Shown piece after piece: positions 43,304 through 46,977 of a stretch of DNA of 64,000 nt. Within the stretch, counting starts at the first letter, position 1, and each line of letters starts with the position of its first letter. The position numbers and the translations under genes are program-made. This DNA is from Anaerolineae bacterium (GTDB lineage Bacteria; Chloroflexota; Anaerolineae; Aggregatilineales; Aggregatilineaceae). Below the pieces are notes generated by a model. That model was not told where the DNA came from. It worked only from the letters and a program-made list of their open reading frames with translations, and searched no databases. The stretch covers positions 62,001 through 126,000 of the forward strand of contig JAHDLB010000030.1 in NCBI GenBank assembly GCA_018432315.1, given 5' to 3'.

Positions 43304-44758
43304 CTATTCCACCCCCACCGCGGCAGCCAACGCCGCCCCGGCCACCTGCGCGGCAAGCGCAGGATCGTCTTCCGACTCGATCACGACGACCACCGCCACC
43401 GCTTCCGGCTGGTCGCTTTCGGTCACATCCGCGAACCCCGCGAACCACACGTAAGGCGTGGCATCCGGCCCGCCATAGGCCAGCGCGCTGTGGCCGTACA
43501 ACACAAGATCGCCCAGCCGCGCCTGGCTCACATACGGGCTTTGAGCCGACGCTTGAAGCATCGTCAGGCGCACCGCCGAGGCCACGTCCGCCCGCAGCAA
43601 TGCCGGGCGGCGCGCCGGCAGTTCGAGCGACTCCCATTCGGACGAGCCAGGCGCCCGCACCGCGTCGACGAGATGCAGCGGCACGGCGTTTCCCTGGTTG
43701 GCGATGGCCGCGATCACCTGCAGCATTTGCAGCGGCGTGACGGTCAGGTCGCCCTGGCCGGTCAGCGCCGCCACGAGTTCCTCGCTCGGCGTCTCGTCGT
43801 GCAGCAGCGGCGGCGGGCTGCCCGCTGCGGTAGTGAACCCGCTGAGCACCGGTGACGTGAGCAGGCCCAGCGCGTCGAGCCGTTCCCACAGGTGCCCCGG
43901 CGTCAGGCCGGATTCCATCGCGCGCGCGAACGGCGCCGGACAGCCGAACAGGTACGCTTCGGCCAGCGTCAGCGGGCGCGATGGCGTGCCCGGCAGGCAG
44001 GTCAGCTCCAACCCGTTGACCCGGACCGGCGTGTCCACGTCCGGCACCTCGCTGTTGAGCACGTAGCCGCCCTGCTGGCTCAGGTCCGACTGGGCCGCCA
44101 GCATCGCCGCCAGCACCACCGTCTGCAGCGCGCCGCCCGGCTGGTACTGCCCCGCCGTCGCGCGGTTGAGCAGCGGCGACGTCTCTACGTCGCGGGCCAG
44201 GGTTTCCCACGCTGCGTCCAACTGATTAGGATCATAGTTCGGCTGGCTGACCATTGCCAACACGCGCCCCGAAGGGACGTGCGCCACGACGACCGCCCCG
44301 CTGTGCGATCCGAACGCCTCCGACGCGGCGAGCTGCACGTCCAGGTCCACCGTGGACCGCACGTCGCTGCCCTGTGGCGCGCGGTGCAGCAGGTCGTCGA
44401 CCAGGTCCCGCCAGGCGCTCGCCTGGTCGTCGCCCCGCAGCTCGGCATCGAACGCCGCCTCGATGCCCGCCGTCCCATAGGTGACGCTGTAATAGCCCAC
44501 CGGCGCGGCGGCCTGTGGATAGGGGTACACGCGGCGAGCGAGCCCGGTTTCGGTCACCTCGGAATACGCCAACTGCTCGCCGTCGCGATCGAGGATCGCC
44601 CCCCGGCGAATGCGCTGCTCCGCGATCACGTTGCGGGCGTTATCGGAGCGTTCGCGCAGGCTGTCGGCGCGCACGACCGCCCAGTACGCCGCGCCGATCG
44701 TCACCACCCCGAAGCAGAGCAGCGCGGCCAGCGCCACCCATTTCAGCTCGCGCGTCAT
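43304..44758 (-). CDS. PbpA/PBP2-like protein lacking catalytic motifs
   Basis: Single-pass membrane protein of 484 residues with a PBP transpeptidase-like fold: TM ~7-29, juxtamembrane RIRRGAILDRDG (52-60 region), SGAVVVAHVPSGRVLAMVSQ, and GQGDLTVTPLQMLQVIAAIA, all normal PBP landmarks. But the active-site motifs are gone: SxxK (usually PGSTFK) reads PGGALQ (Gly209, Gln212); SxN reads GCP (272-274); KTG reads HSA (423-425). It should not bind beta-lactams or cross-link. ATGA overlap couples it to the SEDS gene, so it may act as an allosteric activator of that polymerase (inference). A strain-specific mutation is unlikely, as all three sites are changed. Confidence 0.85.
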   Translation of the reverse strand: MTRELKWVALAALLCFGVVTIGAAYWAVVRADSLRERSDNARNVIAEQRIRRGAILDRDGEQLAYSEVTETGLARRVYPYPQAAAPVGYYSVTYGTAGIEAAFDAELRGDDQASAWRDLVDDLLHRAPQGSDVRSTVDLDVQLAASEAFGSHSGAVVVAHVPSGRVLAMVSQPNYDPNQLDAAWETLARDVETSPLLNRATAGQYQPGGALQTVVLAAMLAAQSDLSQQGGYVLNSEVPDVDTPVRVNGLELTCLPGTPSRPLTLAEAYLFGCPAPFARAMESGLTPGHLWERLDALGLLTSPVLSGFTTAAGSPPPLLHDETPSEELVAALTGQGDLTVTPLQMLQVIAAIANQGNAVPLHLVDAVRAPGSSEWESLELPARRPALLRADVASAVRLTMLQASAQSPYVSQARLGDLVLYGHSALAYGGPDATPYVWFAGFADVTESDQPEAVAVVVVIESEDDPALAAQVAGAALAAAVGVE

Positions 44759-46074
44759 ACCGGCATCCTCTCGTCGGTGCTCAGCACCAGCAGCAGGCCG
44801 GCGATCACGAAGCTGGTCAGCAGCGAGCTGCCGCCATAGCTCACGAACGGCAGCGTGACGCCCGTCAGCGGGACGATCCGGAGCACGCCGCCCATGATCA
44901 ACAGGCTCTGCACGGCCAGCATCATGCTCAGCCCGGACGCCAGCAGCGACCGGAACACGAACCGGGTCCGCGCCGCGATCGACAGCCCGCGCACGACGAT
45001 CACGGCCAGGGTCGCCACGATGGTGATCGTGCCCACCAGGCCCCATTCCTCGGCTACCGCTGCGAAGGCGAAATCGCTGTGAACGACCGGGATGATCGTG
45101 GGCTGTCCCTGGGCGATGCCCTGGCCGAACACGCCACCCGCCGCCACCGCCATCAGGCTCTGGACGATCTGGTACGCGTCCGAATCCGCCGTCGACCACG
45201 GGTCGGCCCATACATCCACCCGCAGGGTCACGACGTCGAACTGGGTATAGGCCGCCGCCGCCGCGGCCAGCAGCAGGACGGCGCCACCCACCAACAGCAG
45301 CGCCTGCCCGCTGGTCAGGTACAGCATGAACATGAACACCACGAAAAACAGGGTGGCGGTTCCCAGGTCGCGCTGCCAGACGAGCACGACCATGCACACG
45401 CCCCACATCAGCAGCACGGGCGCCAGGAAGGCGGGCGACGGCACCCGCCAGCGCCAGACCCGGATCGTATCGGTTCGCATGTAGCGTTGGTGATCGGCGA
45501 AGAAACTCGCCAGGAAGACGACCAGCACGATTTTGAGCAGTTCCGACGGCTGGTAATACACCCGCCCAAACCCCAACCACAGCCACAGGCGCGGCCCGGT
45601 GCTGGATGGATTCTCTCCGATGAGGATCGTGATGCCCAGCAGCGCCAGCCCGCCGATCAACCACGTGTAGCGGTAGCGGCTCAGCCAGCGCAGATCGCGC
45701 GGGAGGAACGACACCGCCAGCAGCGCCGCCACGCCCACGACCAGCCACAGTGTCTGCCGGTCGGCGTAGGACGGCACCAGCCGGTCGACGAGGTTCAGCC
45801 CCCAGCCGGTCAGGAACATCGCCAGCGGGAACAGCAGCGGATCGCGCCGGGGCAGCCGCCGGTTGAGGACGGCGTGCCCCACGACGGCACATCCCGCCCA
45901 CACGCCCACCGGCCAGAGCGACGTCCAGGGCCGGTCGCGCGCGACCACCAGCGCGACGTGATTGACCAGGATGATCAACCCGGCCAACGCCAGCAGCGCC
46001 GCCTCGCGCCACGGCGACGCCGGCATGTCTTCCAGGTCGAATTCCCCCGTGCGCAGCACAGCGCGATCGGTCAT
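44755..46074 (-). CDS. rodA: SEDS glycan polymerase (RodA/FtsW family)
   Basis: Membrane protein of 439 residues, about ten to eleven TMs. Catalytic Asp of SEDS proteins is visible at 236 in LVWQRDLGTA, with SSTGPRLWLWLGFGRVYYQPSE and HSDFAFAAVAEEWGLVGT (332-347) and VTLPFVSYGGSSLL. Polymerises lipid II into glycan (known for RodA/FtsW); RodA versus FtsW cannot be settled from motifs. Coupled by ATGA to the PBP homologue, as with RodA-PbpA in Actinobacteria, and starts 21 bp after mtnP. Confidence 0.92.
   Translation of the reverse strand: MTDRAVLRTGEFDLEDMPASPWREAALLALAGLIILVNHVALVVARDRPWTSLWPVGVWAGCAVVGHAVLNRRLPRRDPLLFPLAMFLTGWGLNLVDRLVPSYADRQTLWLVVGVAALLAVSFLPRDLRWLSRYRYTWLIGGLALLGITILIGENPSSTGPRLWLWLGFGRVYYQPSELLKIVLVVFLASFFADHQRYMRTDTIRVWRWRVPSPAFLAPVLLMWGVCMVVLVWQRDLGTATLFFVVFMFMLYLTSGQALLLVGGAVLLLAAAAAAYTQFDVVTLRVDVWADPWSTADSDAYQIVQSLMAVAAGGVFGQGIAQGQPTIIPVVHSDFAFAAVAEEWGLVGTITIVATLAVIVVRGLSIAARTRFVFRSLLASGLSMMLAVQSLLIMGGVLRIVPLTGVTLPFVSYGGSSLLTSFVIAGLLLVLSTDERMPV

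Positions 46075-46095: not shown

Positions 46096-46977
<882 letters not shown>

Follow-up and report, generated by a model that had tools for sequence, protein, structure and literature searches.

Two adjoining genes on the minus strand of the window (the whole stretch of DNA analysed, 64,000 nucleotides) code for a SEDS glycosyltransferase and a class B penicillin-binding protein (PBP), the latter predicted to be catalytically dead. Their features, with the basis of each assignment in brackets, are as follows.

44755-46074, minus strand: SEDS glycosyltransferase, 439 amino acids (Pfam FTSW_RODA_SPOVE, 4.6e-70)
45367-45369, minus strand: SEDS catalytic Asp236 in WQRDLGTA (sequence; SEDS alignment)
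43304-44758, minus strand: PbpA-type class B PBP, predicted catalytically dead, 484 amino acids (Pfam, PDB sequence match, AlphaFold2, Foldseek)
44672-44755, minus strand: PBP transmembrane helix, residues 2-29 (helix in the model; the part surviving in the 59-amino-acid remnant L212)
44579-44644, minus strand: juxtamembrane DNARN (39-43) to RRGAILDRDG (51-60) (residues conserved across orthologues)
44360-44605, minus strand: pedestal or PBP_dimer_2 domain, residues 52-133 (Pfam; retained in the forms with a central deletion)
44123-44140, minus strand: former SxxK motif, PGGALQ (207-212) (PbpA and orthologue alignments)
43997-43999, minus strand: Cys254, probable disulfide partner of Cys273 (95/95 full-length dead rows versus 16/31 active)
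43937-43948, minus strand: former SxN motif, FGCP (271-274) (PbpA and orthologue alignments)
43940-43942, minus strand: Cys273, within the former SxN motif (95/95 full-length dead rows versus 12/31 active)
43724-43759, minus strand: landmark GQGDLTVTPLQM (334-345), intact (orthologue alignment)
43475-43495, minus strand: former KTG motif, GHSALAY (422-428) (PbpA and orthologue alignments)

The SEDS (46074-44755) and PBP genes share four bases, ATGA, the start of the PBP gene lying inside the end of the SEDS gene. Both this overlap and the retention of the catalytic Asp in the SEDS partner had been recognised in an earlier reading of the locus made from the sequence only, and both are borne out. 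With an adjacent SEDS gene and an intact catalytic Asp, the locus has the make-up of a SEDS-class B PBP pair. Directly upstream of the pair lies a gene of the purine-nucleoside-phosphorylase family (PNP_UDP_1, 46096-46977), and a gene similar to this neighbour is likewise found upstream in three other loci (L050, L059 and L212).

Sequence and predicted structure of the PBP

The 484-amino-acid protein matches the Pfam families Transpeptidase (PF00905, 7.9e-19) and PBP_dimer_2 (PF21922, the PbpA dimerisation domain, 6.5e-15), and PbpA from M. tuberculosis is its closest solved structure by sequence in the PDB (E 2.3e-32). An AlphaFold2 model of the protein (mean pLDDT 90.6, pTM 0.88) resembles PbpA, with PbpA-type PBPs of Atopobium parvulum and M. 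tuberculosis as the top fold matches in Foldseek. For an active orthologue (L162) the sequence match to PbpA has an E value of 4.2e-70.

In the alignment to M. tuberculosis PbpA, PGGALQ lies on PGSTFK, FGCP on KSCN and GHSALAY on SKTGTAE. The SxxK motif, with both its Ser and its Lys, is thus replaced by GALQ, SxN by GCP and KTG by HSA, all of them non-catalytic, which confirms the loss of all three motifs claimed in the sequence-only reading, and the PBP landmarks described there as intact, RRGAILDRDG at 51-60 and GQGDLTVTPLQM at 334-345, are indeed present. That reading would have fallen if a true Ser/Lys/KTG triad lay elsewhere in the protein. A scan of the whole protein for S-x-x-K and KTG found neither, and the sole lysine is K6, N-terminal to the membrane helix; a second SxxK or KTG triad is therefore impossible, and a catalytic triad at another site was rejected. 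Judged by homology, the protein belongs to the PbpA family and lacks the catalytic features that define a D,D-transpeptidase, and by every sequence criterion it is predicted to be catalytically dead.

Distribution of dead PBPs in Chloroflexota

Relatives were sought in 61 genomes of the source family and order, with a cut-off of E < 1e-60 for orthologues, and the PBP had an orthologue in 49 of them. Those relatives that carry names are Anaerolineae assemblies, Chloroflexota. The motifs are lost in about 50 orthologues of the order, all readable ones being dead. Among 42 aligned orthologues the Lys of SxxK is replaced by Gln, Glu or Tyr and the Asn of SxN by Pro (42/42), and the Lys of KTG is found in none, His being its most frequent replacement in the order. 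Four residues of the juxtamembrane region (N40, R42, R52 and G53) are invariant in the 42 orthologues, and none of the 18 forms whose transpeptidase domain is deleted departs from them.

A class sample of 297 genomes, in which the locus counts take in some genomes twice, revealed motif loss in most of the Anaerolineae families read. Four kinds of locus were distinguished in the class: an active, separate PBP; a dead, separate PBP; a dead PBP fused with the SEDS protein in one open frame; and a dead PBP, often fused, from which about 100 residues in the middle of the transpeptidase domain are gone. Active, separate PBPs occur within Anaerolineae in five families (f13, f37, f41, f47 and f51). 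In the other classes of Chloroflexota the motifs are intact in 22 of the 23 loci read, the exception (L237) being fused and dead.

The survey of Chloroflexota PBPs that had been proposed with the sequence-only reading therefore returned the same losses: every readable orthologue of the order shows them, as do most of the Anaerolineae families read. The losses of the window gene recur in dozens of independent assemblies, and a sequencing error, the other way in which that reading could have failed, is excluded by the same substitutions across their orthologues. The dead PBP is not peculiar to the source genome and is spread over much of the class.

In the SEDS alignment 129 of the 130 rows that could be read have the catalytic Asp, and the one exception (L236, Asn) adjoins an active PBP. 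Beside each dead PBP the Asp is kept wherever it can be read.

Loss, fusion and erosion on the SEDS tree

An earlier SEDS tree, which contained long branches and an FtsW/RodA outgroup, had an unreliable root and was rebuilt. The tree used has 87 rows, with the long branches removed, and is rooted on the active pairs, support being given as SH-aLRT only. On it the active or dead state of the PBP takes three changes, namely an ancestral loss over 64 rows, forming a dead clade with an SH-aLRT of 82, and changes at L237 and L183. Catalysis appears from this to have been lost once, deep in the ancestor of most of the Anaerolineae that have the pair, with two further isolated losses. At L183 (1628-2767, G065) a low-complexity EELEELG-like stretch replaces the protein from SxxK to past SxN and KTG is intact; its sister L162, from the same genus, is fully active. 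The replaced segment may be an assembly artefact and is read with caution.

The fused or separate state changed eight times on the tree and the central deletion five times. Natural single-chain SEDS::PBP fusions include L050 and L083; a model of the L083 fusion without the SEDS N-terminus (pLDDT 68.6, pTM 0.56) was too poor for the interface to be read. Fusion is not confined to dead PBPs, as L199 shows. The locus L199 (281-3793, G289) is an open frame of 1171 amino acids with a distant SEDS part and a PBP with all motifs intact, and the same genome also carries a dead, deleted fusion (L200).

The central deletions take out the SxN region, and the pedestal and juxtamembrane residues stay. At L212 (3428-3607, G058) the SEDS gene is followed by a PBP remnant of 59 amino acids, which consists of the membrane helix and the juxtamembrane DNPRH only, and at L213 (911-1330, G045) by a remnant of about 139 amino acids in which membrane helix and DNPRH are also kept. 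The SEDS protein of L212 is fast-evolving, for which reason this pair may be decaying. At L059 (2126-3495, G036) a frameshift splits the dead PBP, whose motifs show additional drift.

Co-occurrence of the two genes

Both genes were found in 51 of the 61 relatives, a number that includes a few fragments at contig ends and one frameshifted gene, and neither gene in 7; two genomes have the SEDS gene with a PBP remnant only, and one has the PBP alone, in a genome that is 88% complete. The co-occurrence of PBP and SEDS has a Fisher p of 6e-7, uncorrected for kinship. In genus g23 (G029, G034, G048 and G052) both genes are retained on separate contigs; the dead PBP gene stands alone behind a WD40-like gene, as at L042 (1673-4040, G029), and the SEDS gene has moved to another contig.

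Selection on the dead PBP

Comparison of close relatives gave dN/dS values of 0.04-0.30 for the dead PBP; those for the SEDS protein were 0.03-0.18. For the dead transpeptidase domain the range is 0.05-0.31, a constraint about equal to that on the pedestal; the dead PBP is under purifying selection, with both domains constrained. The dead rows, in which some genomes are counted twice, share a signature at the former active site: Pro for the Asn of SxN in 92/95, Gln or Glu for the Lys of SxxK in 85/95, His or Gln for the Lys of KTG in 82/95, and both Cys254 and Cys273 in 95/95. These two Cys probably form a disulfide. Many orthologues have Gln, Phe or Tyr in place of His423. An ectodomain free of lysine is found in 33/94 dead orthologues versus 0/31 active ones.

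Other cell-wall genes of the source genome

The source genome has a separate cluster mreB-mreC-mreD-PBP2-minC-minD-RodA, in which PBP2 is active (names from reading the translations), and an active FtsI adjoins mraY on another contig (L001). The window pair has neither the mreBCD linkage and MrdA-type PBP of a Rod pair, the mreBCD cluster lying elsewhere, nor the FtsI and dcw cluster of a division pair. Since the genome has its MreBCD-PBP2-RodA set complete and its FtsI active, the window pair is an extra, third SEDS pair; there are three SEDS genes in total, with a further one on contig C2. The strict RodA-PbpA pair with a dead PBP put forward in the sequence-only reading thus stands as far as a dead PBP beside an intact SEDS protein is concerned, but the elongation pair of the cell is the separate MreBCD-PBP2-RodA set.

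The genome further codes for an active MecA_N-type PBP with intact motifs (L002), four more PF00905 proteins, judged to be class A PBPs from their length and from the N-terminal part of those in which it was read, and seven YkuD proteins. Cross-linking capacity therefore exists elsewhere in the cell. MecA_N proteins are present in 59 of the 61 relatives; the MecA_N PBP as a cross-linker dedicated to the pair was set aside as uninformative because it is present in nearly all relatives, and since these include relatives without the pair it is not specifically tied to the pair.

Discussion

The findings suggest that the dead PBP survives as the partner and activator of the polymerase and no longer as an enzyme. 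The membrane helix and pedestal of the PBP would contact the SEDS protein and keep it in an active conformation, and the dead PBP may also recruit it. The SEDS protein would polymerise glycan from lipid II, and cross-linking would be supplied in trans, most plausibly by the active MecA_N-type PBP, class A PBPs or YkuD-type L,D-transpeptidases. After a single ancestral loss, the transpeptidase domain would have drifted, been partly deleted, or fused with the SEDS protein in several lineages. We infer the contact, the activation, the product and the identity of the cross-linker, and hold it likely that the protein is a transpeptidase-dead SEDS activator, with cross-linking by other enzymes and with this history of one loss followed by drift, deletion and fusion. 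A purely activating role is the best-supported reading, in view of the fusions, the deletion of the transpeptidase domain, the joint loss of the two genes and the unchanged SEDS Asp. A physical complex of the two proteins has indirect support from the natural fusions and the co-occurrence.

Several points speak against an activator. SEDS synthesis uncoupled from cross-linking is toxic in E. coli, the MecA_N PBP lacks a specific tie to the pair, and fusion also occurs with active PBPs. In the full-length forms the conserved signature (Gln/Glu, Cys-Pro and His) and the constraint on the transpeptidase domain go beyond what activation by means of helix and pedestal would require and are left unexplained by it; either maintenance of the fold or a repurposed pocket may be the reason. 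A pseudoenzyme that binds a stem peptide, muropeptide or partner protein in its pocket and so gates the SEDS protein, a sensor rather than a relic, would account for the conservation of these non-catalytic residues and for the low dN/dS of the domain. We consider it improbable, as the pair persists in several lineages that have lost the SxN region or the greater part of the pocket, the pocket therefore not being essential everywhere, and the signature may in part reflect maintenance of the fold, its two Cys resembling the Cys pair of PbpA. The conserved positions of Cys273 and His423 might instead point to a new catalytic chemistry, but Cys273 is probably bonded to the invariant Cys254, His423 is variable and several lineages have deleted the site, which makes this the most far-fetched of the explanations.

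A polymer made without DD-cross-linking, whether glycan or another lipid-linked polymer, for which catalysis was lost as unneeded, would suit a pair that is extra beside complete Rod and division sets, and a loss that has been stable over much of the class, so without a lethal futile cycle. The SEDS residues conserved with active PBPs are, however, conserved here as well, and no sequence sign of another substrate was seen, so that we regard such a polymer as rather unlikely. Single loci do look like error or decay (the frameshifted L059, and L212 and L213 with remnants only), but as a general explanation this is very improbable, and for the window gene it is refuted by the orthologues and by purifying selection. 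That the SEDS machine has over much of the class been uncoupled from cross-linking of its own, be it with a repurposed-pocket regulator or through a glycan that is not DD-cross-linked, is a tentative proposition which, if true, would break the rule of a SEDS polymerase and an active transpeptidase in one complex.

If the dead PBP is an activator, the Anaerolineae present a natural experiment on the role of the class B PBP in a SEDS-PBP synthase. Evolution took catalysis and then parts of the catalytic domain, and the membrane helix, the pedestal and the active site of the polymerase stayed; activation would therefore be separable from cross-linking. For structural work the Anaerolineae forms would provide minimal activators and single-chain complexes of natural origin, and no beta-lactam is predicted to be able to bind such a SEDS complex. 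A natural dead SEDS partner over a class appears to be new: searches of the open-licence literature turned up no account of a SEDS pair whose PBP is dead by nature, in agreement with the sequence-only reading, which had known of none.

Comparison with known systems

Actinobacterial PbpA presumably has an adjacent SEDS gene, as at the window pair, and we take the Cys pair of the M. tuberculosis protein to be a disulfide. Like the window PBP, M. tuberculosis PbpA (PDB 3un7) is a short class B PBP with a PBP_dimer_2 pedestal and a Cys pair near SxN, and the two are alike in fold (Foldseek, E 8e-31, TM 0.77/0.84). Unlike the window PBP, which lost all three motifs, it has all of them and binds beta-lactams, as seen in acyl-enzyme structures. 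The active pairs of other Chloroflexota and a few Anaerolineae (L162, L176, L177, L181, L215-L222 and others) belong to the same profile family, have a neighbouring SEDS gene and are joined to the dead pairs on the SEDS tree, but differ by intact SxxK, SxN and KTG motifs.

The membrane helix of PBP2 is by itself enough to stimulate RodA of E. coli (PMC10449877), and changes in the pedestal activate RodA (PMC6207328). When cross-linking is lacking in E. coli, SEDS synthesis turns into a toxic futile cycle (PMC6207328). Single ORFs coding for SEDS and PBP occur naturally (PMC10449877). These natural ORFs and the E. coli RodA-PBP2 construct resemble the Anaerolineae fusions in having SEDS followed by PBP in one polypeptide; the transpeptidase is intact in the construct, whereas nearly all fusions read here are dead or partly deleted.

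A class B PBP working without catalysis is likewise already known, from engineered mutants. The dead PBP2B S309A of B. subtilis supports division if the MecA_N-type PBP3 supplies catalysis (PMC5656894), and SpoVD S311A of C. difficile retains part of its function in asymmetric division (PMC12713402). As in our reading of the dead PBP, the protein is needed in both, its catalysis is dispensable and another PBP supplies it or compensates, but these are laboratory point mutants, whereas the loss in Anaerolineae is natural, ancient, affects several motifs and concerns an extra pair. The Anaerolineae pattern fits this published division of labour, fixed by evolution.
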